From the NCBI RefSeq assembly GCF_030348945.1, contig NZ_JAUCEN010000002.1, positions 3,472,001 through 3,536,000 of the forward strand: 64,000 nt of DNA. Reading direction: 5' to 3'. This stretch comes from Peribacillus sp. ACCC06369. GTDB taxonomy: Bacteria; Bacillota; Bacilli; Bacillales; DSM-1321. Shown here in pieces: positions 50,373 through 64,000 of the stretch (positions are counted from its first letter, which is position 1; every line of letters starts with the position of its first letter). The position numbers and the translations under genes are program-made. The notes beneath the pieces were generated by a model. It had not been told where the DNA came from. It saw only the letters and a list, made by a program, of their open reading frames with translations, and did no database searches.

Positions 50373-50684
50373 CTACTCAACGACCGTTATCTTTCCTTTG
50401 CTATCCAAACTAATATCATCCCCATTAGGACAGGATGTCTGTTTGAGATAGCCTTGGCTTTCCAATTCATTGATACTTACGGGCAGTTTAGCATTGTCGA
50501 TCTCATATGCCTGAACCTGTGCTTGAGCCATCTTCACGAATGCTTCACACCCTTTAGACTGGATTGTCGATTGGTTCTTCGTGATATTGGGTATTGTAAT
50601 AATCAAAAGAATGGATATTACAAGTAAAACAATGAGCATCTCAATTAGTGTAAAACCTCGTTCATTCATCACTTTCTTCATCAT
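50373..50684 (-). CDS. comGC: Major competence pseudopilin ComGC
   Basis: 103-residue major pilin of the DNA-uptake pseudopilus. Prepilin cleavage motif RGFTLIEMLIVLLVISILL, a second Cys-containing segment (QSKGCEAFVKMAQ, KQTSCPNGDD) expected to form the intramolecular disulfide. The ATG at 50684 follows AGGAGCAGG; a second ATG follows directly. An unusual hairpin abuts its ribosome site. Confidence 0.93.
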   Translation of the reverse strand: MMKKVMNERGFTLIEMLIVLLVISILLIITIPNITKNQSTIQSKGCEAFVKMAQAQVQAYEIDNAKLPVSINELESQGYLKQTSCPNGDDISLDSKGKITVVE

Positions 50685-50770: not shown

Positions 50771-51805
50771 CTATATACCTTCGAGCAGAGAGAACATCGG
50801 CAGCAAAACCGCTAAATAAATGGACACGATCACAATACCTATCAGTAAAAACATAAGGGGCTGAATGATTTTCAAGACTGCATTCATTCTCTCTTCAATT
50901 TTCTCCAGTAAAAAACGACTGTAATGAAGTAGCTCCGCATCAAGTCTGCCATATCTTTGACCATTTGCAACGACCACCGGTAAATTCCCATCAAAATAGG
51001 GGAGTTCACGAAAGATCATTTCAAGCGATCTGCCCTCGATAAGGTCATCCTTAATGATCGAGCATAGTTTTTGGTAAAAAGGCTGCTGCTGATTTATAGA
51101 GAATAATTTGATGCTGTCGTTAATCGATAACCCTCCGGAAAGTAAGCCACTGAATTGGCTTGCAAAAAAATAAGTTTCGTATAACTTGATGAAGGTTCCT
51201 AATATCGGAATTCCCATCAAAATCCTCCGCTGCCGTAATGGGCATAATCCGTTAAACCAAAATCGTTTGAGTACAAACAAGAATAGGAGCGATACGAGAA
51301 AAATCAAGGGGAGAGCCGGAAGAATGAATGTGGAAGCTGACAGTAATTTCAAGATTGTATTCTGTTCAACATCCATCGTGAAATAGATGGTCTGGAATTT
51401 AGGAAGGAGAACACTCTGAAGAATGTAAAAAACGATGCTTACAAAAAAGATTAAGAATACGGGATACACCATTAACTTTTTTACTTTATCCATATCCTCC
51501 GTTCTTTTCTTCCAATATCGCCCTCCCTCTTTCAATGCCCGATCCAGGTCGCCGTATTGCTCGCCATAAAATATATAACTTACAAGCTGCGGATGAAAAT
51601 TAAGATGGGTTAGCACTTGATGCAACGGGTAACCGTTCCTTAATTCCTTTATGGCCAGAGTGAAGTCTTCCGCTTTATTCTTTGATTCCTGAAATTCGAG
51701 AAAATGTAAAGCTTCCGCCAAGGGATAACCATGATGTAATAATTCACCTAGCTTCGAAATAAAGACCGCCTGTTCTTTTAACTTCCATTTAGTTTTTAGC
51801 TTCAT
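50771..51805 (-). CDS. comGB: Competence pseudopilus platform protein ComGB
   Basis: 344-residue PilC/GspF-type inner-membrane platform protein. Three TM segments (about 115-140, 170-195, 315-340) and conserved segments LGELLHHGYPLAEALHFLE and FSGLLSGGLSINDSI. The ATG at 51805 overlaps the comGA end by 17 bases; an in-frame ATG at 51823 is an alternative. Intact, but its partner ATPase ComGA is broken. Confidence 0.9.
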   Translation of the reverse strand: MKLKTKWKLKEQAVFISKLGELLHHGYPLAEALHFLEFQESKNKAEDFTLAIKELRNGYPLHQVLTHLNFHPQLVSYIFYGEQYGDLDRALKEGGRYWKKRTEDMDKVKKLMVYPVFLIFFVSIVFYILQSVLLPKFQTIYFTMDVEQNTILKLLSASTFILPALPLIFLVSLLFLFVLKRFWFNGLCPLRQRRILMGIPILGTFIKLYETYFFASQFSGLLSGGLSINDSIKLFSINQQQPFYQKLCSIIKDDLIEGRSLEMIFRELPYFDGNLPVVVANGQRYGRLDAELLHYSRFLLEKIEERMNAVLKIIQPLMFLLIGIVIVSIYLAVLLPMFSLLEGI

Positions 51806-52430
51806 GGTATACAAGCCGTTCATATTCCTGCGAATCCACATAGCCCATCGCAACAGCTTTTCCTATTTCATCCTTCAATAGGCGGTAGCTGGCCGTTGCC
51901 TTTCCTTTTTCATCCCCCATCATCCGGAGAACCTCGGCCAGGCTTTTTCCGTAAAGCAATTCATATACACTTGCCCTTTTATTCCTGGCAGTCATTTGGC
52001 AAGCAAAAGCACAGTCCCCATTACATGGAAGACACCTCAATTCAACCAGCCGCTGTGCTGTCACGCCAATCAAACTCTGTTCAATCTCAAGCAAGCTGAC
52101 ACCAAATTCAAGTAACCTGGAGATAGCACCCTGTGCATCCCTTGTATGCATGGTTGTAAGTATCAAATGGCCGGTTAGAGCTGCACGCACTGCGATTTTG
52201 GCCGTTTCGGCATCCCTGACTTCCCCTACCATGATCACGTCGGGATCATGCCTTAGCACAGCTTTAAGACCGACAGAATAAGTAATGCCCGCCTTTTCAT
52301 TGATTTGGACTTGCAGTACCTTTTCAGATACATTTTCAATGGGATCTTCAAGCGTTATGATATTTCGATTGATCATCTCATGGGCATGATGAAGCAGGGA
52401 ATATAGTGTCGTGGTTTTCCCACTGCCGGT
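51789..52430 (-). pseudogene. comGA: comGA, 3' fragment cut at the Walker A motif
   Basis: Competence type II/IV secretion ATPase that drives pseudopilus assembly. Only the C-terminal 213 residues remain, beginning TGSGKTTTLYSLLHH, followed by IITLEDPIE, the Walker B region DPDVIMVGEVRDAET, and the Cys-rich zinc motif CLPCNGDCAFAC. B. subtilis ComGA has about 356 residues, so the N-terminal part up to the residues preceding TGSGK is missing. Just upstream in the frame the codons read S-L-Q instead of the expected G-P. Frame remains intact up to the junction, and no ribosome site precedes the first in-frame ATG at 52376. The lost 5' part presumably lies beyond the mobile element. Confidence 0.9.
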
Positions 52431-52497
52431 TTGTAGAGAATTTAGGGACTATTTTTCAATTATCACTGTTAATTAACAATGTTGATATTACATCAAA

Positions 52498-52525
52498 AGA
52501 AAAAGGACCATTTTTTAGTCCTTTC
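52498..52525 (-). terminator. Hairpin near the left element end
   Basis: AAAGGAC / GTCCTTT stem with T-rich flank on the minus strand. Similar in sequence to the hairpin at 53314-53342. It would block element transcripts from entering the comG remnant. Confidence 0.55.
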
Positions 52526-52673
52526 ATTTGTTACCATCTTCAAATCCCGCCCCATCATAAGCTTTGCTATGTATGATAGACAATTACCCAATTACGCATG
52601 GACAATTACCTAAAAAGTATACAGCTGAATATACTGTCGAGAAAAATAAGATTAAGATAAGGAGTGATTATCT

Positions 52674-53033
52674 TTGTATCGTCAACCATTTTCACCTTGG
52701 AATTATACCTCTGAACCTAATCCTAAATATAGCCAATGTATGTGGGATTGTTTGGCCACTCCTGGAACGTCAGAGCAGGAATGCCATGGATATTGCAGCG
52801 GGTATGCCTCAATGCCAATAGCATATAGCGTACCGATGACATATGGTGGCATGAACCAAGCTGTACCTTACAGTCCACAGCCATATTATTATTATGGGAG
52901 TTATCCATATTCCTATCCTGGAACGGTGCACGGAAATCCGTATAGTTTCCCTATAAATGACCCTTGTATGAAACAATGCTTAAAAGGTGGAAGCAGTTAT
53001 TTAGATTGTTGCTATTACTGTGGATGGTGCTAA
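52674..53033 (+). CDS. Cysteine-, proline- and tyrosine-rich protein with twin CX3C motifs
   Basis: 119-residue protein of unknown function. Start is TTG at 52674 behind AAGGAGTGA. The N-terminal third carries CMWDC then CHGYC (two CX3C pairs, 11 residues between), and the C-terminus carries CMKQC then CCYYCGWC, a second similar pair. The middle is rich in Tyr, Pro, Gly and Ser (PYSPQPYYYYGSYPYSYP). No signal peptide or TM. Composition recalls cross-linked spore-coat or structural proteins, but no family is recognised. It is the first gene inside the element, pointing away from comGA. Confidence 0.65.
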   Translation: MYRQPFSPWNYTSEPNPKYSQCMWDCLATPGTSEQECHGYCSGYASMPIAYSVPMTYGGMNQAVPYSPQPYYYYGSYPYSYPGTVHGNPYSFPINDPCMKQCLKGGSSYLDCCYYCGWC

Positions 53034-53360
53034 TAGACATGCTTAGAACCAAAAAGAACCGGTAACATTGGGGACGTATTGCACCACAATAAAAAATCCC
53101 CTTTTCTAAGGTGGTTTTTTATTTTAACGAATAAACACATTTACATAAAACATTCTTTCTTTGATTTAGATATCATGCGATTATGAAGGACTTAAAAATA
53201 CAAGCTATTATAACCATTAGAGTTTTTTCCGTTACAACTCTATAGTTTCATTTTCACACACACAGTTTGGTTGAGTAATTGGTGACAACTTAATTATCAG
53301 TTATGTTTTAACAAAAAAAAGGACCCATTTTGGTCCTTTTGTAATTCTTTTATTAAGTGT
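53034..53360. other. Intergenic region between the Cys-rich gene and the S74-like gene
   Basis: About 330 AT-rich bases with a plus-strand terminator-like dyad (CCCCTTTTCTAAGGTGG then TTTTTTATTTT, 53097-53123) and the S74 gene terminator at 53314-53342. Nothing else recognised. Confidence 0.55.
53314..53342 (-). terminator. Terminator of the S74-like gene
   Basis: AAAAGGACC, a short loop, GGTCCTTTT, then a T-run on the minus strand, 20 bases after the stop. Confidence 0.8.
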
Positions 53361-54389
53361 TTAGCCCTTAGACTCAAGCGCGGAAAGACGTGCCTCGAGG
53401 TTAGCTAAATTCGCATGTAACTGAGCATTTTCAGCCATGAGTTTCTCGTTTAAACCTTGTATAGCAGCCAATGCTACCCCCTGTATATCTACGCTTGAAA
53501 TATGTTTATTATCATCTCCATTTAAACCGAAAGCGGCATGGAAATCCTGAGCAGTCGGACCAATGTGCCGCATACTGGACGGGTCCTCTTTAAACTTCCA
53601 AGACTGGATTGAAATGGTTGCTAATTTGTCAAGGACCTGGAGTGGGTTGACGCTCGAGAAATTTTCCTTAGAGTTCTTATCACTAGTGAGCGTAACCCCG
53701 CGTACCTTGACTTCACCATTATTAAGGACCCGGAAGACCTCGACATTTCTGTTATCAATGCCGCTGATGAGGTCTCCTGTACCCCGGTGATTGACGAACA
53801 AAGCTGGTGACTCCCCATGATGACTTCTAGCGCCAAGCGCGCCGTTCCAATTGCTCTCGGCATAGACACCAGTCCCTCTATCGCTCTTTCCTTCTACTCC
53901 ACTGTTAACTTGGCTATCACCAGAGACCCCAATGCCTTGTCGGCTCTTACCTAATACTCCATAACCAATTCCATCATTAGTTATTTGTTGGCCCAAAACA
54001 CCAACTCCTGCTCGGCTAATCCCTACTACACCTGTACCCTGACCTTTATGTTCACCCCAAACGCCAGCTCCTCCATTTGTGCTTGGAGTCTCTCCGTAGA
54101 CACCATTCCAGGTCTTGCTGACACCTACCACACCTGAGCCAATAGCCTCTCCATAAACACCAAATCCGCCAGTTGGACTTTTGCTGGCACCTACGACACC
54201 ATGCCAAGTTTCGCTCTCACCCCAGACACCAGTGCCTCTGCTTTTGCCGTGAACACCAACCCCTGCGGCGTCTGTTTGATTTGTGTTTTGTCCAAGAACA
54301 CCTGGGGTCCTCGGTTGGTCTGTAATACCTTCCACTTTTTCTCTAATTTGAAGCCCTCCTTTATTTTTACAGTTTTTATTAACATACAA
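53361..54389 (-). CDS. Gly-Val repeat protein with C-terminal peptidase S74 (tail-fibre chaperone) domain
   Basis: Up to 342 residues. Residues about 28-215 consist of about a dozen irregular repeats built on G-V-x-G-x-S (for example GVWGES, GVVGAS, GVYGEA, GVLGKS), suggesting a repetitive beta fold. The C-terminal domain (about 240-342) matches the S74 intramolecular chaperone: LTSDKNSKENFSSVNP, then HIGPTAQDFHAAFG and a terminal coiled coil (EKLMAENAQLHANLANLEAR). Such domains trimerise and cleave themselves off phage tail fibres. The start is uncertain: ATG 54389 has no ribosome site, while AAAGGAGGG lies just before an in-frame ATT about 15 codons later. Confidence 0.8.
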   Translation of the reverse strand: MYVNKNCKNKGGLQIREKVEGITDQPRTPGVLGQNTNQTDAAGVGVHGKSRGTGVWGESETWHGVVGASKSPTGGFGVYGEAIGSGVVGVSKTWNGVYGETPSTNGGAGVWGEHKGQGTGVVGISRAGVGVLGQQITNDGIGYGVLGKSRQGIGVSGDSQVNSGVEGKSDRGTGVYAESNWNGALGARSHHGESPALFVNHRGTGDLISGIDNRNVEVFRVLNNGEVKVRGVTLTSDKNSKENFSSVNPLQVLDKLATISIQSWKFKEDPSSMRHIGPTAQDFHAAFGLNGDDNKHISSVDIQGVALAAIQGLNEKLMAENAQLHANLANLEARLSALESKG

Positions 54390-55015
54390 GTTCTTGGTCA
54401 GGTAACGTATCTAACTTAAATTTGTTTCACAATCACATTCCAATATATTGAAAAAAAATTTTAAAAGAACTAAAAATCCAGCGTATACCAATTAATGTGT
54501 AAAAAGTAACACCTACTTTAGTGCTACTTTCGATAAATATTCCGCTAAATTTTTAATCGCCTCTGGTGATGGTGCATTTCTAATAATCACTTTAATTTCC
54601 TTCATTTCGATTCTCCCTCAAAACATTTAACGAGATTGTATTGAGAAGAATTAAAATGTAAGGTAAAACCGCAAATTTGTGGATAACTTTATTTTGATTA
54701 TTAATATCCAAAATAAATCGATGGTCTTATTTCATAATCTCGAGCTAAAGTAAACAAAATGTTTACAATATTCTAAATAAACGCTTGATTTCCGGCAATT
54801 TTGTGAAACATTAAAATTTTAGTTATCGAGATTTATACACTTCAATCTTTGCATGAACCAAGACGCTCCCTGAAAATTAAATAAAAGATGCCATAAAAAA
54901 AGTTAGGGAATCAGATATGGACTCCCTAGTAAAATTACAATTTTAGTAGAACCTATATTATCTATATCATAAATACAAAAAAAACCAATGCTCATGCACT
55001 GGTGCGTTTTGATGG
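54390..55015. other. Region holding one tiny gene, otherwise non-coding
   Basis: About 620 AT-rich bases. Apart from the 30-codon gene at 54513-54605 no frame is supported. A weak dyad near 54900-54930 (AGGGAATC ... GACTCCCT) may end that transcript's neighbour. Confidence 0.4.
54513..54605 (-). CDS. Very small protein (30 residues)
   Basis: Reads MKEIKVIIRNAPSPEAIKNL with a short amphipathic end (AEYLSKVALK). The ATG at 54605 has GAGGGAG eight bases upstream, an excellent ribosome site. Codon pattern and helix periodicity look protein-like. I recall similar KVIIRNxPSPEA peptides in Bacillus phages and plasmids but cannot name a family. Function unknown. Confidence 0.6.
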   Translation of the reverse strand: MKEIKVIIRNAPSPEAIKNLAEYLSKVALK

Positions 55016-55318
55016 TTATTGTACATACATAACATTTTGAATTACTGTTTTAACATGTCTTGGTGTACTTGAACCAAAATGAATATTAAAACCTTTTTTA
55101 TCACATCTAACGGTTGTCATTGATATTGACATATCATAAATCTGAAATAGGAAATAAGGCTCACCATTTTCATCGGTTTTTTCTTCAAACTCAATGTAAT
55201 CCACAGATTCATCTTCTTCAAATGCGTCATCGAGTTCAGAAAGTTTCCACTCAACCAAACGCAACAAATCTTTACCTTGAATAATAACCGATTCTTTGTC
55301 TTCAATAATACATACCAT
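55016..55318 (-). CDS. Acidic hypothetical protein
   Basis: 100-residue acidic protein (notably DDAFEEDESVDYIEFEEKTD, about 30-49) with a beta-rich C-terminal half (GFNIHFGSSTPRHVKTVIQN). The ATG at 55318 follows GGAGGTAA. No family recognised. The acidity could mark a DNA-mimic type protein, but that is speculation. Confidence 0.6.
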   Translation of the reverse strand: MVCIIEDKESVIIQGKDLLRLVEWKLSELDDAFEEDESVDYIEFEEKTDENGEPYFLFQIYDMSISMTTVRCDKKGFNIHFGSSTPRHVKTVIQNVMYVQ

Positions 55319-55668
55319 CTTGCATTACCTCCGTAAAATAGTTTGTCTTGTCTTATGCAATTGGAGGATTTTATGTAATTTTCAAAAAATATCCATCAGT
55401 TCAGGGGAGAACTGATGGAGACGAAACTTAAACGCTATCATAATCGCTTGTTTCCGCAAGTATTATACAATGTAGATAAAATAAACAGTCGTCCAAAGAG
55501 ACGAACACTGGAGCGAGTCGCCATGACAAGCAACTCAATAAAGTAATATTATCACGATAGGCGAACAATGTCTATCATTTTTTTGCTTTTTTTGAATATT
55601 TTTCATTGAATAACGAACTATATTGACTTTTGTAAATAAGTTTGTTCGTATTTTTTGAATATTAATAT
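55319..55668 (-). other. Intergenic region with a terminator hairpin
   Basis: About 350 bases. At 55393-55418 the perfect stem CCATCAGTTC / GAACTGATGG (six-base loop) followed on the minus strand by ATATTTTTT looks like the terminator of the 55669-56373 gene, although it lies 250 bases downstream. No gene seen. Confidence 0.55.
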
Positions 55669-56373
55669 TCAATCCCATAAATTGGAATCATCTATAAATG
55701 TATTAATAGAATAATAATCAACTTCTTCGCCTTCTGCCATAAAATCAAGTAATTCTTGTAAACTGTCCCATTCCTGTAAAATATCAGCAAAATAAACAAC
55801 ATCATCTTTTACAAAAGTAGCACAGGTATGTTTTTCAGTAGTCCAAACGTTGACTTCCACGTTTAATGCTTTTGATATTAAAGCAGCAGTGAACTGATTA
55901 ATCCAATGACAACCATGAATGAATTGATACCATTCTATCGTGCTTTCTTTGGGAGCGTGTTTGTCCCAATATTTTCTTTCCAATAGTTGATACTCTTCTG
56001 TTCCGTTCAGTTCATACCAGAAATCAACTTCATCTTCATCATCTTCATCTTCATCTTCATCTTCATCACCATAAAGTTTTTGGTACAATTCCTTTTGCTC
56101 TTTTTGAAAATCTTCATCTTCTTCATATGCTTCTATGATTTTCATGTCCCAATAGTCAGTATGAGTGTATTCCCAAGGTGCATTACCTGGCATCCACGTT
56201 TCACATCTATATGAATACTGTTCGGAAAATTCCGTCATTGCGCTGTTGAGAACTGCCTGTACATCTTTATCATTTAAATATGGTTTTAATAAATGCCAGT
56301 TATCACGAACGGAATATAGTTTTTCTTGTAGTTCAATTTCTTCCTCGATTTGCGGTGCTAATGTAGTTGTCAT
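55669..56373 (-). CDS. Acidic protein with a Glu/Asp repeat tract
   Basis: 234-residue protein. A central tract of alternating Asp and Glu (around residues 110-125) is encoded by tandem GATGAA hexamers (plus-strand TTCATC repeats, about 56034-56071). Flanking regions are rich in Trp, Tyr and acidic residues. The N-terminal part is helical (TLAPQIEEEIELQEKLYS). The C-terminal half (about 135-234) looks globular: STIEWYQFIHGCHWINQFTA and VEVNVWTTEKHTCATFVKDD. No family recognised. The ATG at 56373 follows GGAGG; 18 upstream in-frame codons lack a ribosome site. Confidence 0.65.
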   Translation of the reverse strand: MTTTLAPQIEEEIELQEKLYSVRDNWHLLKPYLNDKDVQAVLNSAMTEFSEQYSYRCETWMPGNAPWEYTHTDYWDMKIIEAYEEDEDFQKEQKELYQKLYGDEDEDEDEDDEDEVDFWYELNGTEEYQLLERKYWDKHAPKESTIEWYQFIHGCHWINQFTAALISKALNVEVNVWTTEKHTCATFVKDDVVYFADILQEWDSLQELLDFMAEGEEVDYYSINTFIDDSNLWD

Positions 56374-56605
56374 AATGTAATGCCTCCATGTTTTGTTGTT
56401 AATTACATTATATTGAACAGATTTCATTCGGTAGGAAGCACCGATGAATTTGTCCGTAAACCAAAAAAGAATTGCACCCTTGGTAAAGGATGCAACTTGA
56501 AGTTGTTGAAAGTGTGCTTTGTTCCGTCAAAGCAAATGAGTAGGCGTTTGTTCGCCTCCTTCCTGAGAAAGACCATTTCCGTGGCCATATACTATTAATA
56601 AAATA

Positions 56606-56632
56606 ACCACCTTGCGATTAAACAAGGTGGAA
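56606..56632 (-). terminator. Hairpin after the 56639-56845 gene
   Basis: CCACCTTG / CAAGGTGG stem with a nine-base loop and TTATTTTATT on the minus strand, just past the stop. Confidence 0.75.
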
Positions 56633-56638
56633 TGCTGT

Positions 56639-56845
56639 TTACTGCGGAAATTTAACATTCACTGGTCGTTTAGGATTGGTTTCCCAACCGACAAACGGAA
56701 TCGCCCAACCTTTAGCGATGTAGTCATTTGCTACTGTATCTGCCAAATCGTGGACGTAAGAATAAGCGTAACTAAGTCCGGCTGGTCCTTGGTTGTATGT
56801 CATAATGCTAACCGATGTAATGAATACTACTTTCATATTTGCCAT
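56639..56845 (-). CDS. Small hypothetical protein
   Basis: 68-residue protein, MANMKVVFITSVSIMTYNQG, with a hydrophobic N-terminal strand and an ending rich in Pro and aromatic residues (AIPFVGWETNPKRPVNV). The ATG at 56845 has AAGGAGAT upstream. The frame stays open to 57058, but that extension runs through tandem repeats. No family recognised. Confidence 0.6.
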   Translation of the reverse strand: MANMKVVFITSVSIMTYNQGPAGLSYAYSYVHDLADTVANDYIAKGWAIPFVGWETNPKRPVNVKFPQ

Positions 56846-57165
56846 GGTTATATATCTCCTTCCTGAGTTGATGTACAGTTGCTTCATCAAAATGACGATA
56901 TTTTTGATGCTTTTTGATAGTTTTTGATGTACTTTTGATGCCTTTTCGATAGGTTTCTGACGTACATTTACGTTAAATGCTCGTATAATCCATACGATTT
57001 GCTTAATCCCAAACTGAAAGTGCGAATCAAACAGGATAGGAATGCAACAGAAACCCATTGGTAGTGCGGTTTCTAAAAATCGGTTTTTTTTTGAAGGGGA
57101 TTAACAAGACTAGAGGGTGACGAACAAGGAAAAAATTTTTCCCCGTAATTTAGATTTGGCACCTT
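56846..57165. other. Control region with phased repeats upstream of the 56845 gene
   Basis: About 320 bases. Contains the TTTTGAT repeat cluster described separately and, at 57080-57160, G/A-rich sequence near the end of the terS-like gene (GACTAGAGGGTGACGAACAAGG) where a packaging site could lie. No gene is supported. Confidence 0.45.
56902..56950 (-). repeat. Five phased TTTTGAT repeats
   Basis: On the plus strand TTTTGAT occurs at 56902, 56912, 56922 and 56933, then TTTTCGAT at 56943. Spacings are 10, 10, 11 and 10 bases, one DNA turn each, so all face the same side of the helix. They end about 60 bases upstream of the minus-strand gene starting at 56845. Operator or replication iteron are both possible. 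Confidence 0.7.
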
Positions 57166-57690
57166 TCATCCCCAATCACCAGTTTCATCTTCTTTTTTCA
57201 TGTCTGCCAATAGTTGAAGAATTGGATTGACTTCTTTCGGTTGATTGTCCTTTTCCATTTGCTCTAATTTTTTCTCTTCAATCATCACTTTCGCCATATC
57301 ATTGGCAAGTCTGAATCGTTGAGATAACGGAATACACAATTGACTCATGTGTTGGCTGATTTGTTTATCAATCGCAATCATGCGTTTTTCGAAGTCCGAA
57401 GCACGCTCATCAGTTATGTCAAACTCGTTGTGTGCTTGTTTCAATTTCGTCCACATATGCAAATACTGTGAGAGCAAATTCAATGATTCCGAGTCGTTTT
57501 CTGTGTAATTGTCATTTCGTTTCCTTAGTTTGAAGAATATTTTCCGTTCTTCGCTATTCAATATTGACGATGCTTTGGGACTGGTTTGATTCGTCACCAC
57601 TTCGGCTTCAGCCTGTTGCCGAGCAGATATTTCAGCCTTAGAAACTTTACGTTGTAGTTGATTCGTGCTCGTTCTTACACCTCTAGCCAT
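57166..57690 (-). CDS. Phage terminase small subunit-like protein (P27-type)
   Basis: 174-residue, mainly helical protein resembling P27-family small terminase subunits. A basic N-terminus (MARGVRTSTNQLQRKVSKAE) is followed by a helical core with a typical QYLHMWTKLKQAHNEFDI segment and SQLCIPLSQRFRLANDMAKV. TerS recognises the packaging site on phage DNA and recruits the large subunit. The ATG at 57690 follows AAAGGAGAA. The HNH gene immediately upstream is the usual companion. No large terminase follows within the window, which is unusual for a complete phage. Confidence 0.7.
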   Translation of the reverse strand: MARGVRTSTNQLQRKVSKAEISARQQAEAEVVTNQTSPKASSILNSEERKIFFKLRKRNDNYTENDSESLNLLSQYLHMWTKLKQAHNEFDITDERASDFEKRMIAIDKQISQHMSQLCIPLSQRFRLANDMAKVMIEEKKLEQMEKDNQPKEVNPILQLLADMKKEDETGDWG

Positions 57691-57806
57691 ATTGATTCTC
57701 CTTTCTAAAAGTAAAGATGGGGAAATGGATTTTCGAACTTCTCCTACCCTCTTGTCTTGAATGTTACCTACATAAAAAAAACCCACCTACATTTAGATGG
57801 ATTTTC

Positions 57807-58202
57807 TTACAAAACGTATATGTCACCTATTTCTTTAGGTGTGAAATCAAAGTCCAACTGCTCTTTAGTTCCATATTCTGTATTGCATTGCTGACATAAT
57901 GTCACACAGTTGGTTGCTTCATAGGTCAACTCAGGGTATCTGATACGTGGTTTGATATGATGTACTTGTAATGTGAATCCTCTAATAAGATTGTATTTTG
58001 CCAAACAACGCTGACAATGAGCACCATCACGTTCAATTATTTGCTTCCTAAACTTTTTCCATTTAGTTGTTGTTAATTCTTTATTTTGCTCAATATCTTT
58101 CTTTGGTCTGCGCTGTGTCCTCCACGCACATTTACAGTTCATCACTGAACCTTCTACCATTGTGTTGCAATAATCGCATATTGTTACTCTTCTACCGCCC
58201 AT
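57807..58202 (-). CDS. HNH endonuclease
   Basis: 131-residue HNH nuclease of the type found beside phage terminases. A CxxC pair (TICDYCNTM) and a second zinc or Cys pair (CQRC ... CQQC) frame the HNH core LQVHHIKPRIRYPELTYEATNCVTLCQQCN. The ATG at 58202 has AAAGGAG nine bases upstream; ATG 58208 is an alternative two codons earlier. Such nucleases assist terminase-dependent packaging. Confidence 0.82.
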   Translation of the reverse strand: MGGRRVTICDYCNTMVEGSVMNCKCAWRTQRRPKKDIEQNKELTTTKWKKFRKQIIERDGAHCQRCLAKYNLIRGFTLQVHHIKPRIRYPELTYEATNCVTLCQQCNTEYGTKEQLDFDFTPKEIGDIYVL

Positions 58203-58313
58203 TATCATCTTCTCCTTTAATTTCGATAATTTCCAAACGCTTGTCTTCATAAATGCTTTTCTTTGGTTTGATTGTTAGACCACTAATTATTTGAATATTT
58301 ATATTCAATTTCA

Positions 58314-58547
58314 TCAATAATCACCAATTTGTTCTAATGCGGTTAATTGTCGTTCGGTCTGCTCTACAGACCCCTTACGGTTCTGCCTTTTGATTTGTGC
58401 TTGTTTCCTAGCATCAGCCCTGATTTGTGCTGTGGGACTAACATCGTAACCAAGTTCTTTTGCTTTCTCCGCCTCAATCTCATATTCTTTAAAATCTTCT
58501 ATTGGTAATCGGAAACGGATTTCCACGTATTTCTTTTCATCAGCCAT
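58314..58547 (-). CDS. Small charged hypothetical protein
   Basis: 77-residue protein, MADEKKYVEIRFRLPIEDFK then a strongly charged helical remainder (QIRADARKQAQIKRQNRKGS). The short beta-strand opening followed by helices resembles ribbon-helix-helix regulators, but the match is weak. The ATG at 58547 follows AAGGAGG. Three phased 10-base repeats lie directly upstream. Confidence 0.6.
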   Translation of the reverse strand: MADEKKYVEIRFRLPIEDFKEYEIEAEKAKELGYDVSPTAQIRADARKQAQIKRQNRKGSVEQTERQLTALEQIGDY

Positions 58548-58580
58548 ATTAATGTACCTCCTTGTGTCTAATAAAGTGTA

Positions 58581-58610
58581 ATCACGCCTGATAGCGTCTG
58601 ATTGCGCCTC
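58581..58610 (-). repeat. Three tandem 10-bp repeats upstream of the 58547 gene
   Basis: ATCACGCCTG, ATAGCGTCTG and ATTGCGCCTC follow each other without a gap (pattern AT, two variable bases, CGYCTS). The 10-base period places each unit on the same helix face, 34 bases before the start codon. Looks like an operator array. Confidence 0.65.
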
Positions 58611-58733
58611 ATAGTATATATACAGTTCTTACCTACTTTGTAAGGCGTTTCTAAACGATTTCGGCATCTTTTTTGAGGTACAAAAGAACCTATTTTTCTA
58701 AAAAGAAAGGACGAGCATCAGCCCGTCCCGTTT

Positions 58734-60068
58734 TCATATTTCAAAGTCCGCCCACCGTTTTAACAAAGTCCTCATTCGTTCTGCAGGTATATAACAATTC
58801 ATTTCTTCATCGTTACGGATACAACCTCGGAACAAGAACTGGATTAAATCCGATACCGCCAATCTATCTTCGTCCACTTCAATCCCATATTCACGAAAGA
58901 AATTCTTTTCTAATGGATTAACAAACCGATTATAAACGTATGCCATACTCGTACAGTTTCCATATGAATTTGTTGCCCTGGCATTAAGTGCAACAAAATT
59001 ATCACTGGAACGGTCATTATTCTTGTTCCATTTACATTTTGCATTTTTCAGAGTCGGAGCAAAATCCGATATTGTCGTCCAAAAGATGTATTCGTTTTCG
59101 GTTGGTATCACTTGCCTGAAATAATTCCGCAGATTATTGTTCAATTGCTTTAAATCTTTTGGGGATGCAGTGTATCGAAACCATGTTGATGATAATTGAT
59201 AGTAACGCTGCTGATTCGTAAGTTTTTCACGAGAATCATAATTGGAGTTCAAAGGACTCTTTTTCCTATTGCTTTCATCATCCAAATATATATTTAATTT
59301 TTCATAGGTTTCTTTACGAGGTTCTTTGGTTGGGTCATAATCAATCAATTCATAATGACCGTCAGTGTTTTTTACGCTGTGCTTCTTGAACTTAATATCG
59401 TTCGCCATGTAGTATCTACACTGAGTTTGACCATCGAACATATATGTTAAAACATAAACTTCATCGAATGCTTCAAATGCTCGGGTATTCATTGTCCAAA
59501 ACATGGCGATTCCATTTTGAAGGATTAAATTATCACTCTCGGCCAAAATCTTCATATCGGAAAATTTACCAGTGTAATCATCATCCAGCCATATAACTTT
59601 GTCATTCTCACCAATTTCGATGGTGCCTTGACCTATTAACATTTGAATATCACTCTTGGTGATATCGTATTTTTCCAGAACACTGGCGACTTCATCCATA
59701 ATCAATGTGTAACCTTTTCCCTCGATAACATCCAAAATATCCAAATCAAGTTTTTTGAACAGTTCATGAGTAGTTGCCACTGATTTTCCAAGTGTTATTA
59801 ACGCTTCGAAACTCTTAATTTTGGTTCCTTTGACTTCTGGTTCAAAAAAATCAATATCAGTTGCTTCCCGTATACGCTCTACTTCCTTCAAAAATGGAGT
59901 CACATATATGTATTTCAACGGTTCCCCTGAATCACCGAATGCCAATTTCCTTTTTTGTCCCACATTTTCATTTATTTGTTGGATAGCCCATGATGTCTTT
60001 CCTGCTCCACACATGGCATCCACTACATTTATAGTTTGAGTCATATTAAATCCAGTTATTTTTCTCAT
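58734..60068 (-). CDS. P-loop NTPase / superfamily 2 helicase-like phage protein
   Basis: 444-residue protein with Walker A VVDAMCGAGKTSWAIQQ (about 13-29), a motif-Ia-like YIYVTPFLKEVERI, Walker B YTLIMDEVASVLEKYD, and a later segment WTMNTRAFEAFDEVYVLTY resembling SF2 helicase motif III to IV spacing. Similar proteins occur in phages and in origin-binding (herpes UL9-like) helicases. Likely a replication helicase or NTPase. The ATG at 60068 (MRKITGFN) follows TGGAGG; the frame is open 21 codons more without a ribosome site. Confidence 0.65.
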   Translation of the reverse strand: MRKITGFNMTQTINVVDAMCGAGKTSWAIQQINENVGQKRKLAFGDSGEPLKYIYVTPFLKEVERIREATDIDFFEPEVKGTKIKSFEALITLGKSVATTHELFKKLDLDILDVIEGKGYTLIMDEVASVLEKYDITKSDIQMLIGQGTIEIGENDKVIWLDDDYTGKFSDMKILAESDNLILQNGIAMFWTMNTRAFEAFDEVYVLTYMFDGQTQCRYYMANDIKFKKHSVKNTDGHYELIDYDPTKEPRKETYEKLNIYLDDESNRKKSPLNSNYDSREKLTNQQRYYQLSSTWFRYTASPKDLKQLNNNLRNYFRQVIPTENEYIFWTTISDFAPTLKNAKCKWNKNNDRSSDNFVALNARATNSYGNCTSMAYVYNRFVNPLEKNFFREYGIEVDEDRLAVSDLIQFLFRGCIRNDEEMNCYIPAERMRTLLKRWADFEI

Positions 60069-60137
60069 GATTTGCCTCCAAATTGTTTTTGTACCGTCAT
60101 TGTATTGAATACATCTGCAATCCGTAGGCAAGCCAAT

Positions 60138-60432
60138 AAATATTTTTATGAAAATGAATATATCCGCACAAAAAGTGTGCCAGCAACGCTTAGAAACCCA
60201 TTCATACCAACGTTAGTTCGAGGTCCTCTTTAAAAAGAAATAGTGTATTTGTGCCAGAAGAAAACCGACCCCATCAGGGGAAGGCATTGCGCTGTAGTGA
60301 ACGCAGTGAACGTAAGCAAGGAAGCACGCTAGTGATTCCCTCAATTATTTTAGGTTCGCAACAAGTTGCTCCCTGCGCTTAGAACACTGCGTGTTCAGAC
60401 TGCTCAACGGTTTCCCTTCGGGGTGTTTTCAC
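60138..60432. other. Non-coding, structured region, possible origin or small RNA
   Basis: About 300 bases, locally GC-richer than the surroundings (60240-60430). It contains the repeated word GAACG in GTAGTGAACGCAGTGAACGT and dyads such as CCCTTCGGGG. No gene on either strand is credible. It lies upstream of the P-loop NTPase gene, so a replication origin or regulatory RNA is conceivable. Confidence 0.4.
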
Positions 60433-60468
60433 GAAAAAACGCTTGCCCATATAATAGGACAAACGTTA
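60433..60468 (-). terminator. Terminator of the two small genes at 60474-60801
   Basis: AACGTTTGTCC / GGGCAAGCGTT (two G-U pairs) with eight-base loop, then TTTTTT on the minus strand, right after the stop at 60474. Confidence 0.75.
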
Positions 60469-60473
60469 ATGAT

Positions 60474-60677
60474 TCATTGCTTTTCTTTCTTTTGTTTTTT
60501 CTCCATTATGTGCAGGATGACTGTACAAATCAGCATGTAGCCCGTCAATGATATCCAATAGTAAATTGGAAAATCATCGTTTCCACTCGATGACCATGCC
60601 CATATGCCGAATATCAAATATGGCATGAACAATAAGAATCGGAGTTTCCATAGGTATGTTCCCCATTTACTCTTCAT
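60474..60677 (-). CDS. Small membrane protein
   Basis: 67-residue protein with two TM segments (about 9-26 and 39-57: RFLLFMPYLIFGIWAWSS, WISLTGYMLICTVILHI) and a Lys-rich tail. Its ATG at 60677 lies 11 bases inside the preceding small gene, so it is probably translationally coupled. Function unknown. Confidence 0.6.
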   Translation of the reverse strand: MKSKWGTYLWKLRFLLFMPYLIFGIWAWSSSGNDDFPIYYWISLTGYMLICTVILHIMEKKQKKEKQ

Positions 60678-60801
60678 GAATCAGCACATCCAATACTTGA
60701 GCGAGATTGAAATCCTTCTCGGCAATCGCATTAATTAAACTTTGACAATTCAAAACTTCTGCTAATAATTGTAAATCCGTTGTCACTCCTGACTGTCCCA
60801 T
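60667..60801 (-). CDS. Very small protein (44 residues)
   Basis: Reads MGQSGVTTDLQLLAEVLNCQ then SLINAIAEKDFNLAQVLDVL, a predicted helical peptide. The ATG at 60801 has a strong AAAGGAGGA upstream. It overlaps the following gene by 11 bases. A palindrome shared with 61540-61570 lies immediately upstream. Confidence 0.6.
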   Translation of the reverse strand: MGQSGVTTDLQLLAEVLNCQSLINAIAEKDFNLAQVLDVLIHEE

Positions 60802-60816
60802 ATAATTCCTCCTTTA

Positions 60817-60845
60817 TCATCTCCCCATAATTGGGGACATCTAAC
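60817..60845. promoter_or_regulatory. Palindromic element-specific motif, copy 1
   Basis: TCATCTCCCCATAATTGGGG followed by ACATCTAA. The palindromic centre CCCCATAATTGGGG (one central mismatch) is flanked by CATCT on both sides. A related copy lies at 61539-61568. It sits just upstream of the start of the minus-strand gene at 60801. Confidence 0.6.
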
Positions 60846-61134
60846 TGAATGCCCATAAAACGCACATAGTCACGTTGTACAGCGTTTTAACACATTCTAT
60901 ACATAAACCCTTTCGAATATTATTAAAACATCGTGGCGGTACGTTTAAATGGGTCTTTTTCATTTAAAACGGATAAAAATAGATATACAAAACCAATATC
61001 CACCATCCTACCCACGCCAATCTTGGCAGTATTGGCCTATCATTGTATTTAGATTGACAGCATTTTCCCTGTAATTCATACTATTGTAGTAACATAAGTA
61101 TCAGAATATTTAGTATATTAGGGGGGCGAATGCC
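60846..61134 (+). promoter_or_regulatory. Divergent control region with a sigma-A promoter
   Basis: About 290 bases between minus- and plus-strand gene sets. On the plus strand TTGACA (61054-61059) and CATACT (61077-61082) are 17 bases apart, a good sigma-A promoter for the genes from 61135 onward. No other signal recognised. Confidence 0.6.
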
Positions 61135-61449
61135 ATGAAACCAGAAATCTTATGAACAGCCATCGAAACATTATCAGATTTATTTTTCCACAAGAATAAC
61201 GGAACGGATTACCTCGCACTCAGAACCACAGAGTTGTACATTAGCGACCTTGATTTGTTGGGTGATACCAATGCTGTTGCTGTTGAAATAGAACGTCAGC
61301 GTGCATGGGCTCTGGTGCCAAAACTACGTCTATTCGATAACAAGAGCGCTGATGAAATCGAGGCTGTGCTCCATTGGGGCGGTTATACGGAAGCTGAAAT
61401 CATTGCAAGTGAAAAGGTTTTTGAGGAATGGAAACGAAAGCAACTGTGA
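61135..61449 (+). pseudogene. Hypothetical gene with an in-frame TGA at codon 7
   Basis: Behind GGGGGGCGA the frame starts ATG AAA CCA GAA ATC TTA then TGA, and stays open for a further 98 codons to the stop at 61447: TAIETLSDLFFHKNNGTDYL onward to WKRKQL. The downstream part has a sensible protein sequence (SADEIEAVLHWGGYTEAEII). No ATG or good GTG/TTG with a ribosome site lies after the TGA; TTG 61234 has none. Either a nonsense mutation, a sequencing error, or read-through. The intact form would be 104 residues. Family not recognised. Confidence 0.6.
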
Positions 61450-61538
61450 ATTTTCTTCACAGTTCAAATGTGATTTTTTTTCACATTTGGTAACTCAATT
61501 TTCCGCCGCCAAAATCTCACGGCACAAAATTATGCCTC

Positions 61539-61568
61539 CAACATCTCCCGAAAATTCGGGACATCTAA
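61539..61568. promoter_or_regulatory. Palindromic element-specific motif, copy 2
   Basis: CATCTCCCGAAAATTCGGGA then CATCTAA, palindromic centre CCCGAAAATTCGGG (two central mismatches). Same flanks as the copy at 60817-60845, but with compensating changes that keep the dyad. It lies about 47 bases before the gene starting at 61615. Confidence 0.6.
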
Positions 61569-61614
61569 ATTGCAGGTATCTAACGAAACGTTATACCCCT
61601 GAAGGAGTGATTCC

Positions 61615-61809
61615 ATGGAAGAAAAAATGAAGGTGAAAATTATTTACAAAAAATCGCTTTTCGTTGAACTGGTAAGGCGACACCATAATTTTTTGTACAC
61701 CACGCCTAACAGGGAAAATCGAAAATACCAATGTTTCATGTTCGAAGATACCGAGGAACTGAACAAAGATTTGGCGGAGCTAACGGGGAATAAATACGAA
61801 AGAAGGTGA
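61615..61809 (+). CDS. Small DUF5659-like protein
   Basis: 64-residue protein, MEEKMKVKIIYKKSLFVELV, with FLYTTPNRENRKYQCFMFED in the middle. The YxxxN-R-x(6)-FxFED arrangement resembles short phage proteins assigned to DUF5659, but this is from memory and not certain. The ATG at 61615 follows GAAGGAGTG. Function unknown. Confidence 0.6.
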   Translation: MEEKMKVKIIYKKSLFVELVRRHHNFLYTTPNRENRKYQCFMFEDTEELNKDLAELTGNKYERR

Positions 61810-61813
61810 TACG

Positions 61814-61984
61814 GTGAGCTTAAGAACATTGCAGATTCTGCTGACAATTCCACCATTGCTGTTTCTAATATGGCTATTCGCATTTGATGTAGAACCTAAT
61901 GTTTATTTCATCCTCTTCATAGCAATTTACTCGTGGGTTTCTATGTTTATCGTAGGGCGAAAAAGGAGGAAAGAGCGTGACTGA
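61814..61984 (+). CDS. Small membrane protein (56 residues)
   Basis: GTG start at 61814 behind AAGGTGAT. Two hydrophobic segments (TLQILLTIPPLLFLIWLFAF and VYFILFIAIYSWVSMFIV) joined by DVEPN, then a basic tail. Its end overlaps the start of the next gene by eight bases. Function unknown. Confidence 0.55.
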   Translation: MSLRTLQILLTIPPLLFLIWLFAFDVEPNVYFILFIAIYSWVSMFIVGRKRRKERD

Positions 61985-62222
61985 TTATTATATTATGGAG
62001 AAATTCGACCCGGAGCAGTTCGTGATGAATGAAGTTTTGACTTCTGCGGAATGTATCGAGCTGCTCGACATTACTCGTGCTAGGTTGAGTTCGTTGATTA
62101 GAAAGAAAAAAATCGTCCCAATCAAAAAAGGTGGCGTTCAGCTGTACTTGAAGCAAGATATGCTGAAGAAAAAGGCGGAACTTGAAGCGCTCCGATTGAA
62201 GTACAGACCGTATGAATATTGA
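61977..62222 (+). CDS. Helix-turn-helix DNA-binding protein
   Basis: 81-residue protein. LTSAECIELLDITRARLSSL followed by IRKKKIVPIKKGGVQLYLKQ is a winged-HTH/MerR-excisionase-type motif (about 21-60). Likely an excisionase-like or phage regulatory protein. Start is GTG at 61977 behind AAGGAGG, overlapping the previous gene by eight bases. Confidence 0.7.
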   Translation: MTDYYIMEKFDPEQFVMNEVLTSAECIELLDITRARLSSLIRKKKIVPIKKGGVQLYLKQDMLKKKAELEALRLKYRPYEY

Positions 62223-62240
62223 TGGAAAGTAGGAAAAGCC

Positions 62241-62447
62241 ATGGACAAACTAAAGAATTTACAAGAAATCTATAATGCTAACAGACCGGAAAATAATGAG
62301 TTGTTCCGAGCCATTCAAGCTCACCTGCAGTTGAAGTATCCAGACAAACGAATGACCGCCACGAGAACCTTGCAAATAATTGTGGCGGACAGTGTAGCAT
62401 CTGGAGTGCTGCTTAATGTTGAAAGCAAGCTTTTACACAGCTCTTGA
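62241..62447 (+). CDS. Small hypothetical protein
   Basis: 68-residue helical protein, MDKLKNLQEIYNANRPENNE, then FRAIQAHLQLKYPDKRMTAT. The ATG at 62241 follows AGGAAAAG. The last codons enter the 5' arm of a strong hairpin (62431-62480). No family recognised. Confidence 0.55.
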   Translation: MDKLKNLQEIYNANRPENNELFRAIQAHLQLKYPDKRMTATRTLQIIVADSVASGVLLNVESKLLHSS

Positions 62448-62480
62448 AAGTGCGTTGTGCCACGATGGAGCTGTGTAAAA
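62431..62480 (+). promoter_or_regulatory. Hairpin whose 3' arm abuts the ribosome site of the next gene
   Basis: Perfect 13-base arms TTTTACACAGCTC (62431-62443) and GAGCTGTGTAAAA (62468-62480) with a 24-base loop. The 3' arm runs directly into the AGGAGGTGAA ribosome site of the 62494 gene, and the 5' arm overlaps the end of the 62241 gene. No T-run follows. It could couple or limit translation. Confidence 0.6.
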
Positions 62481-62493
62481 AGGAGGTGAAACA

Positions 62494-62658
62494 ATGACTG
62501 AACGTTTATCTATCGGTATTATAATCTCCTGTGTAGCTGTAGTAATGGGCATACTGATTGACTTAGGAGAGCTGTATATTGCATTCATACTTTTTGTAAT
62601 TTGTGTATTGGCTGCTCTTCCTGCTCAATGGTTTCGTGACTGGCTTTGGAAGGACTAA
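62494..62658 (+). CDS. Small membrane protein (54 residues)
   Basis: Reads MTERLSIGIIISCVAVVMGI, then IDLGELYIAFILFVICVLAA, ending FRDWLWKD. Two TM segments with a short acidic turn. The ATG at 62494 follows AGGAGGTGAA, a very strong ribosome site that directly follows a hairpin arm. Possible small toxin or holin-like protein; not proven. Confidence 0.55.
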   Translation: MTERLSIGIIISCVAVVMGILIDLGELYIAFILFVICVLAALPAQWFRDWLWKD

Positions 62659-62718
62659 AAATATGCTGGTTGCACATCAATTGAATATAAAGATTTAAAA
62701 ACTGGGAGGTATGTCACC

Positions 62719-62940
62719 ATGAAAAAATACATAAATATAGTACCGGTGTTGGGCTTAATCGTGTTGCTTATGGCAATGCCCTTATTCTACGGAGCCATTT
62801 TCTTGGGTAGTTTTATCTTGGATGTTACGCCAACTGTGCATCCTCAACCAGGTCATGAAGACCATGGGCCAAATATTTGGAATGGCATGCCTAAAGCTGA
62901 ATACGAAAAAATCAAGTACTTGGAAGAGCATAAATATTAA
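62719..62940 (+). CDS. Small membrane protein (73 residues)
   Basis: N-terminal TM or signal-like segment (about 8-36: VPVLGLIVLLMAMPLFYGAI) followed by a hydrophilic, His- and Pro-rich tail (TVHPQPGHEDHGPNIWNGMP). The ATG at 62719 follows GGGAGG. The tail would lie outside the cell if the first segment is a signal anchor. Function unknown. Confidence 0.55.
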   Translation: MKKYINIVPVLGLIVLLMAMPLFYGAIFLGSFILDVTPTVHPQPGHEDHGPNIWNGMPKAEYEKIKYLEEHKY

Positions 62941-62972
62941 AAGTGCCCCGCCGATTATGCGGAGTACTTTTT
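62941..62972 (+). terminator. Terminator after the 62719 gene
   Basis: AGTGCCCCGC / GCGGAGTACT (one G-U and one mismatch) with seven-base loop then six T. Confidence 0.75.
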
Positions 62973-62992
62973 TCGCATTTGCATGATTATTT

Positions 62993-63020
62993 TTGTATCA
63001 ATTTAACAGTTTGATATGGT
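62993..63020 (+). promoter_or_regulatory. Weak promoter candidate of the 63103 peptide gene
   Basis: TTGTAT and TATGGT separated by 16 bases, just upstream of the structured leader. Confidence 0.3.
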
Positions 63021-63033
63021 AATATTTAGCTAA

Positions 63034-63091
63034 CCGATTTAAAGCTTTTGTTGTGAATGCCTAACACCGCAAAGGTGTAATTTTAAATCGG
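63034..63091 (+). promoter_or_regulatory. Structured leader that can mask the ribosome site of the 63103 gene
   Basis: CCGATTTAAA (63034-63043) pairs perfectly with TTTAAATCGG (63082-63091); inside lies a second stem ACACC-GCAAA-GGTGT. The outer 3' arm includes the first bases of the GGGGG ribosome site (63090-63094). The layout resembles the masked leaders of type I toxin mRNAs. Confidence 0.5.
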
Positions 63092-63102
63092 GGGTTGATG
63101 GC

Positions 63103-63207
63103 ATGATAGTATTACAGATTGTAGATGTTTCGGTGAACATTCAGTGGGAGTTACTTGCCGGAATTACCATTGCATGGACATTTAGAAACAGGAAGAACCC
63201 TCAGTAA
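63103..63207 (+). CDS. Short hydrophobic peptide, type I toxin-like
   Basis: 34-residue peptide MIVLQIVDVSVNIQWELLAG then ITIAWTFRNRKNPQ: a hydrophobic, potentially membrane-inserting segment and a basic C-terminal tail. ATG at 63103, GGGGGT eight bases before. The stop lies in a short terminator (CCTC-AGTAAT-GAGG then CTTTTCTTTT, 63199-63223). Small size, structured leader and own terminator fit a type I toxin; no antitoxin RNA promoter was identified. Confidence 0.5.
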   Translation: MIVLQIVDVSVNIQWELLAGITIAWTFRNRKNPQ

Positions 63208-63251
63208 TGAGGGCTTTTCTTTTGTTTGCTAATTAAAAGAAAGGTGATGAG

Positions 63252-63713
63252 ATGATGGATATTTACATAGCTGCATTAATTGGTGCTACTGGTTCTATAA
63301 TTGGCGGTTTATTTACTTTGATTGGTGTTTACCTCACTTTAAACCATCAAAATAAAAATGAGAGATACAAAAAGTTGCCTAAAAATATTATTGACAGTTG
63401 GAAAATCCATAAGCAGTTTGCTTATATAGCAGGATTAAGCTTAGCTTTAGAAAAAAAACCTGAATTAGACGATGTTAAAGAAGTTGACGAGTTTTATAAA
63501 AAAAATGAAGAATGGGTTACTGAGCTTTCAGCAACTATAAGTCCTGAAATGTATAATTTGGTCAATTCTTTCTTTACTCACGTATCTGATTATGATTCAT
63601 ACAAAACGAAAAATAAAAATAATGAATGGTTTGAAAAAACAGAGGATTATTCAAATCAAATACATATAATAATTGATTCGCTGGAAACGGAATACAAAGA
63701 AAAATCAAAATAA
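63252..63713 (+). CDS. Membrane-anchored hypothetical protein
   Basis: 153-residue protein with an N-terminal TM segment (about 5-30: YIAALIGATGSIIGGLFTLI) and a hydrophilic helical remainder rich in Lys, Glu and Asn (KTKNKNNEWFEKTEDYSNQI). Likely a cytoplasmic domain tethered to the membrane. Two ATG codons at 63252 and 63255 follow AAAGGTGATGAG. More AT-rich in codon choice than its neighbours. Superinfection exclusion is possible for such architecture but not shown. Confidence 0.6.
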   Translation: MMDIYIAALIGATGSIIGGLFTLIGVYLTLNHQNKNERYKKLPKNIIDSWKIHKQFAYIAGLSLALEKKPELDDVKEVDEFYKKNEEWVTELSATISPEMYNLVNSFFTHVSDYDSYKTKNKNNEWFEKTEDYSNQIHIIIDSLETEYKEKSK

Positions 63714-63726
63714 AACAGTTGAGCGC

Positions 63727-63745
63727 CTACTTAGGCGTTTTTTAT
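63727..63745 (+). terminator. Terminator after the 63252 gene
   Basis: CGCCTACTTAGGCG, a five-base stem with a four-base loop, followed by TTTTTTATTT. Confidence 0.75.
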
Positions 63746-63867
63746 TTGTTCACTAAACCGCACTGGTTGACGTGCTACGGGTAGATAATGAGAACTTCAT
63801 GTAATCCTATGAAAACGGACATAAACACGCACTAACGGTACAACTAATAGTTCAATAATGAAAACAA

Positions 63868-63895
63868 AAAAGACGCCCCGCTGTGGGACGCCCGA
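63868..63895 (-). terminator. Terminator of the gene at the right edge
   Basis: Minus-strand GGCGTCCC / GGGGCGTC (G-U pairs allowed), then TTTTTTG, just past the stop at 63897. Confidence 0.7.
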
Positions 63896-63896
63896 T

Positions 63897-64000
63897 TCAT
63901 TCACGTGCAAGTTTGAATGTGTCGTTTAGCTGTTTGATATTAGCTTGACCTTTTTTATAATTCGCCCAAATATCTTCAATGTCTTCCGAATGGTTTGCTT
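63897..64000 (-). CDS. C-terminal fragment of a protein entering from the right edge
   Basis: The last 34 codons read ANHSEDIEDIWANYKKGQAN then IKQLNDTFKLARE and stop. Helical and charged; too short to assign. The start lies outside the window. A terminator follows. Confidence 0.5.
   Translation of the reverse strand, partial: ANHSEDIEDIWANYKKGQANIKQLNDTFKLARE

Follow-up and report, generated by a model that had tools for sequence, protein, structure and literature searches.

The DNA-uptake pilus motor gene comGA is interrupted inside its P-loop codons in Peribacillus sp. ACCC06369 by an element of 18,109 bp, with an uninterrupted large serine recombinase (LSR) gene adjoining the 5' part of comGA. 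The two junctions share a two-base core, rejoining the flanks gives an open comGA frame, and the same site is occupied in six hosts. Very probably this is a site-specific insertion of an LSR element at the comGA P-loop which turns the comG pilus off, and one case of a family of elements with a shared site. We infer from the sequences that the recombinase would have performed the integration, that integration would disable transformation, and that excision could restore comGA.

The interrupted comGA and the element between its parts

The window, the whole stretch of 64,000 nucleotides analysed, contains the following features (positions counted from its first letter).

50373..50684, minus strand: comGC, an open frame, compared with genome G024
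50771..51853, minus strand: comGB, an open frame downstream of the split comGA, compared with G024
51789..52430, minus strand: comGA 3' part, from the P-loop Thr codon (T-G-S-G-K-T-T-T) to the stop, covering PF00437 positions 150-370
52429..52430, minus strand: attachment core, AC on this strand, the sole letters common to both junctions
52431..52452, minus strand: attP inverted-repeat arm of 22 bases beside the core, with 18/22 matches to the other arm
52431..64000, no strand assigned: portion of the element within the window, continuing to window-equivalent 70538, from the junction comparison
52674..53033, plus strand: 119-residue Cys-rich ORF, no Pfam match
53361..54389, minus strand: 342-residue tail-fibre-like protein with a C-terminal Peptidase_S74 chaperone domain (PF13884; PHROG tail fibre families)
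57166..57786, minus strand: 206-residue protein, candidate terminase small subunit (34% over 143 residues to a protein of contig L091)
57807..58250, minus strand: 147-residue HNH endonuclease (PF01844; phrog_144)
58734..60131, minus strand: 465-residue phrog_2467 protein, common by BLASTP to the G024 and G388 elements
61977..62222, plus strand: 81-residue excisionase-family HTH protein (phrog_4691), 84% identical in the G024 element

The break in comGA falls at 52429-52430, inside the codons for G-P-T-G-S-G-K, and foreign DNA runs from 52431 onward. The missing 5' part is found on the same contig at a distance of 18.1 kb (C2:3542531-3542986, window-equivalent 70531-70986). In a search of the genome with PF00437 the 5' part ends at profile position 151, and the 3' part begins at position 150. 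The AC core falls in the P-loop Thr codon; its second copy is at C2:3542538-3542539 (window-equivalent 70538-70539). The interrupted 5' frame currently terminates in ...FTGPTC followed by a stop, while the flanks rejoined by script yield a single open comGA frame with its P-loop intact. Of the three PF00437 matches in this genome, two are the parts of comGA and the third, in an 865-residue frame, falls below the cut-off; thus no second intact comGA was seen there. The genes comGB to comGG are open frames. No tRNA or Rfam feature was found at the insertion site in the scanned locus (L004).

These results bear out most of an earlier note on the window, which had described comGA as in frame from TGSGKTTT to its stop, the sequence upstream of TGSGK as foreign and comGB to comGG as undamaged. 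The note had suggested looking beyond the right edge of the window for a comGA 5' part ending in G-P beside a recombinase, and both are present there. The duplicated core that it expected from aligning the junctions turned out to be two bases long. Its proposal that the P-loop DNA of comGA serves a mobile element as attachment site gains support from this shared core and from the open joined frame. An assembly artefact, named in the note as a join between unrelated contigs, is rejected because both comGA parts are on a single contig, and five relatives show the same junctions.

The recombinase (504 residues, window-equivalent 68992-70506) carries the resolvase domain PF00239 and the Recombinase domain PF07508, both over Pfam cut-offs, and matches the integrase family phrog_95. 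A protein with these two domains beside the attachment site places the element among LSR-type integrative elements. When the element is circularised, its ends form an inverted repeat around AC with the 18/22 matches given above; none of 2000 shuffles was as good (0/2000), and no other centre within 120 bases scored above 13. A two-base core within an inverted-repeat attP is therefore found here, and it is weaker in the elements of G024 and G281 (13/22 in both, with other centres there scoring 12 and 14).

A simple script chose 24 ORFs of at least 60 residues in the element, and 20 of the 24 were scanned against PHROGs and 19 against Pfam. The phage-like genes that the earlier note saw following the junction are there in so far as they comprise the tail-fibre-like S74, HNH, phrog_2467 and excisionase-family proteins; no capsid, portal or large-terminase match was found in these scans, the few unscanned proteins having 67 to 119 residues. 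Prophage identity of the element is rejected, since the virion genes that mark a temperate prophage were not found among the ORFs scanned against Pfam and PHROGs. A NUMOD-like endonuclease domain and a second HNH protein, of 282 residues, were also matched; the latter is similar to type IV restriction enzymes, with the likeness confined to its HNH part.

The 206-residue protein has no significant Pfam or PHROG profile match, and one of its 47 homologues carries the UniRef name "Terminase". Its match in L091, an IMG/VR contig, lies directly before the large terminase, and for this reason the protein may be a terminase small subunit. The 465-residue phrog_2467 protein, some homologues of which are named DEAD/DEAH box helicase by NCBI, is probably a helicase-like ATPase. 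The excisionase-family protein also matches HTH_17 of Pfam, below the cut-off. The ORF beside the junction at 52674-53033 is small and rich in Cys and Tyr, and is perhaps a surface or spore protein. Elsewhere in this genome there is a second large serine recombinase (G000:C2:5051407-5052864, locus L089), 31% identical to that of the element.

Relatives of the recombinase

We searched for relatives of the LSR in 43 genomes of the family, 397 genomes of the order, and collections of genome contigs and viral contigs. They were detected in three of the 43 family genomes (E <= 1e-60) and at three loci in genome contigs, and are rare in the order (6/397 genomes at E <= 1e-80). Leaving out a 44-residue fragment (L011), identity to our LSR is at least 55% at eight other places: G024 (95%), G424 (Neobacillus sp. 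DY30, 74%), G042 (Bacillus sp. CECT 9360, 67%), L091 (66%), G152 and L092 (59% each), G281 (56%) and G388 (55%). Six of these eight places adjoin comGA cut at the same codons, one adjoins a 31-residue comGA-like P-loop and one lies elsewhere.

Including our strain, six genomes (with G024, G424, G152, G281 and G388) have comGA parts on both sides of the element, an AC core and an open joined frame. The cut in the five relatives is GGN CCN AC/N GGN, the slash marking the break, and their elements measure 17,715 bp in G024, 5,891 in G424, 13,022 in G152, 11,255 in G281 and 10,160 in G388. As to the comparison with relatives suggested in the earlier note, comGA is in one piece in 40 of the 43 family genomes, split at the P-loop in two (ours and G024) and split elsewhere in one. 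Two details count against our explanation: the junctions share six letters in G024 and nine in G424, versus two here, and in G424 the LSR is at the opposite end of the element.

The LSR is the sole protein found by BLASTP in all six comGA P-loop elements. Restriction or abortive-infection-type genes were identified in four relatives, namely a type III restriction-modification pair in G152, a type II restriction-modification pair in G281, an McrB-N/HNH protein beside an HATPase protein in G388, and a putative AbiC protein with a pPIWI-associated nuclease in G024. In the G424 element no such match was found among the proteins scanned (two by Pfam, one by PADLOC). Defence cargo as a general trait of the family is rejected, as our element has only the 282-residue HNH protein of this kind and the one protein of the Neobacillus element (G424) scanned by PADLOC gave no match.

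The remaining relatives are less regular. The LSR of G042 is broken by stops, and next to it lies a 540 bp piece with 90% identity to the comGA region; since an intact comGA is present on another contig, this piece is a remnant or duplicate (the two loci are L042, on G042:C14, and L041, on G042:C6). The L091 record starts with 31 residues of a P-loop ATPase. The scores of this piece range from 46 to 64 for 30 intact comGA and from 19 to 53 for 20 windows of other secretion ATPases, and PF00437 found nothing in this record at E <= 10. The piece appears nearer to comGA than to the other secretion ATPases, not decisively so; because the score ranges overlap, it could be a paralogue. The 59% relative in L092 (an IMG/VR contig of 56,481 bp; with L103-L105) is not beside comGA, and by our reading of motifs it would belong to an element, about 10.7 kb long, that occupies a different site within a viral contig. 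In L011, from Peribacillus butanolivorans, just the 44-residue LSR piece is present, and no comGA match was found in that locus.

Wider searches gave mostly distant proteins. In a sample of the class, 12 of 398 genomes match the LSR at E <= 1e-50, all but our own at 30-32% identity, and comGA lies within about 1.5 kb of none of the 14 LSR loci in this sample. No further carriers were found in the families of G388 and G152 (1/36 and 1/16 genomes carry the LSR), and a comGA query of the viral contig collection returned no contigs flanked by comGA. Plasmid carriage was dismissed, the plasmid search having returned a single distant match at 29%. The protein collection holds at least 120 homologues, 119 of those listed being at least 46% identical; where named, those listed come mostly from Bacillus, Peribacillus, Priestia, Neobacillus, Metabacillus, Rossellomorea and others. 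Among phage records the nearest LSRs are the SPbeta-type serine integrases of Bacillus phages (31-37% identity). Excision of SPbeta in sporulation restores a gene; SPbeta differs from our element in having another target and in being a large phage.

Other insertions in comGA and the choice of target

The comGA 5' part, used as query, matched 396 of the 397 genomes of the order, and the matches listed comprise 149 genomes, counted by eye. Among these, the comGA frame is shorter than 300 residues in 12. The matches listed include interruptions at the P-loop in our strain, G024, G152, G281, G388 and G406, at about residue 239 in G289, G255, G203, G369 and G245, and at about residue 257 in G045. 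The missing 3' part was located in all seven newly found split cases. The insertion in G406 is 35.7 kb long, with genes for DnaB, an HNH protein and a terminase small subunit, and encodes a 469-residue LSR that is 19% identical to ours over 355 residues; its junctions share AC in the same codon. This locus (L106, G406:C20:26001-45500) is a prophage that carries a distant serine recombinase and sits at the P-loop dinucleotide used by our element.

The five insertions near residue 239 are 38.8 to 47.5 kb long, and near each junction there is a serine recombinase 22-27% identical to ours, confirmed by Pfam in both of the two scanned (loci L107-L110 and L112 for G289, G255, G203, G369 and G245). 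In G028, of the same genus as our strain, and in G281, comGA is cut near residues 253 and 257 by 32 kb insertions with TniQ, TniB and Mu-type transposase genes. Tn7-like elements are thus found in comGA at about residues 253-257 in three genomes, two assigned by genes and one, that of G045, from its ends alone, which have an inverted terminal repeat and a five-base duplication. The Tn7-like transposon of G028 (L075 and L076, G028:C23:846501-880000) shows the five-base duplication TCCAG and carries OLD-like and other large cargo genes. The comGA of G281 holds two elements (L035, L036 and L037, G281:C4:36001-86000), the P-loop LSR element and, about 107 codons later, the 32 kb Tn7-like transposon. 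comGA is a wider insertion hotspot, with at least three kinds of element.

The earlier note described the attachment site as highly conserved P-loop DNA. In G424, G281, G388 and G152 an uninterrupted PilT-like frame also encodes G-P-T-G-S-G-K, with AC in the corresponding position; over the inner 34 bases it matches the comGA site of its own genome at 22-26 positions, as compared with 20-28 between the comGA sites of five hosts. This frame is equally similar yet whole, and conservation of the P-loop by itself is therefore insufficient to explain the preference for comGA. One could still argue that conservation is the sole reason for the target and that any effect on competence is a by-product: 30 genus members with intact comGA show good conservation of the attB, and one LSR relative (L092) is located elsewhere. 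With the PilT-like frame spared in the four genomes looked at, and with further comGA sites struck by other elements, we regard this as distinctly unlikely.

Probable consequences for competence

The LSR would insert its element by site-specific recombination between attP, the imperfect inverted repeat around AC, and an attB formed by the P-loop codons given above. Our element would then be one of a family of 5.9 to 18.1 kb elements with the same recombinase, the exact comGA site and differing cargo. With the insertion, the frame of ComGA stops a single residue beyond G-P-T, and 18 kb separate the comGA start from comGB-comGG; with the frame truncated and the genes so separated, the uptake pilus should not be built while the element is inserted. 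ComGA is required for transformation. The insertion probably switches off natural transformation, and it might be reversible; excision, and hence an on/off switch for competence, is plausible.

Divergence between our strain and G024 bears on this. For the two comGA parts dN/dS is 0.097 and 0.131 (dS 0.21 and 0.26); pairs of intact comGA range over 0.026-0.449 and 0.035-0.217, with medians of 0.065 and 0.093. The LSR has dS 0.43 and dN/dS 0.057, the latter indicating that the protein is kept. Other element genes common to the two genomes have dS of 0.46 to 1.58, and comGB, comGC and comGD of 0.38, 0.21 and 0.27. Divergence is thus higher for the element genes (0.43-1.58) than for comGA and the other comG genes measured (0.21-0.38), which suggests that the two elements were acquired separately, although the comGA tree pairs the two strains as sisters (support 0.726) and the value for the LSR is near that of comGB. 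A vertically inherited insertion under long selection for excision is not borne out by these values, the closeness of LSR and comGB notwithstanding. The divergence data would fit both recent insertion and repeated restoration.

How such elements persist may be viewed in several ways. It is an even call whether there is conflict and no switch, elements that break comGA persisting because transformation can no longer replace them once the host has lost competence, with comGA staying off in that lineage. Multiple unrelated element types strike comGA in this order, the general argument has been made by Croucher 2016 (PMC4774983), and competence genes are enriched among LSR targets (PMC10083194); the targets could, however, also be chosen as conserved and dispensable. 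We consider it unlikely that comGA is temporarily restored in some cells or conditions through excision by the LSR and the excisionase, as in the Listeria comK prophage. The precise core, the uninterrupted LSR, comGA parts free of stops, an excisionase-family gene kept in both our strain and G024, and comGA dN/dS values within the range of intact pairs would all agree with it, yet the same signature is expected from a recent insertion, the carriers' values exceed the intact medians, and the divergence of the element genes points to separate acquisitions even in strains that are sisters in the comGA tree.

A broader proposal, in which a defence-bearing element controls competence by stopping the uptake that could remove it, bringing anti-phage genes and restoring competence on precise exit, seems quite unlikely. 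It is a tentative idea, and rather unlikely, that we are dealing with a phage satellite which depends on a helper phage for packaging: an HNH gene followed by the candidate terminase small subunit, together with helicase-like and excisionase-family genes where capsid, portal and large terminase were not found, is suggestive of a satellite, but the assignment of the 206-residue protein is weak and the other family members read do not have this set of genes in common. Site-specific insertion of an LSR element at comGA, our preferred reading, has several parallels. The prophage SpST71A in comGA of Staphylococcus pseudintermedius (44.3 kb; 5' part 509 bp, 3' part 479 bp; PMC7029219) likewise lies inside comGA with both parts kept and a proposed loss of competence; it differs in being a 44.3 kb prophage, and the text of that paper mentions neither attB nor serine. 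Listeria comK prophages, summarised in part in PMC7029219, excise in the phagosome, as shown by experiment. They resemble our element in the insertion in a competence gene and the possible restoration by excision, and differ in that another gene, a full prophage and experimental excision are involved, whereas our element is known from sequence.

Insertions of mobile elements in comYC, comFA, comM and comK at orthologous sites across species (Croucher 2016, PMC4774983) are similarly site-specific and in competence genes, and we found no mention of comGA among the genes that this paper gives as disrupted. The LSR survey of Durrant 2022 (PMC10083194) describes LSR families tied to one target gene, with targets enriched in DNA competence genes; its main text does not contain "ComG", and its supplement may list LSRs of the comGA family. 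A prophage at comG in Macrococcus and other competence-gene insertions have also been described (among PMC7029219, PMC4774983, PMC10083194, PMC6008420, PMC8297860 and PMC3948429). Our literature search, which had subscription papers and supplements outside its scope, found no report of a P-loop-specific family of comGA elements and no paper linking comGA with a serine recombinase, while two papers matched comGA together with Tn7.

Insertions in comGA, as in the Staphylococcus pseudintermedius prophages, and the preference of LSRs for competence genes are therefore already known. What is added here is a recombinase family whose one precise target lies within comGA, the gene for the DNA-uptake pilus motor, with both junctions seen in six hosts, and the landing of two distant serine recombinases, that of our family and that of G406, on one dinucleotide. 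The findings make it possible to test, in relatives of Bacillus, whether mobile elements and transformation are in conflict. It may also offer a natural genetic switch, a reading which is itself plausible, together with a new LSR with a defined attB.
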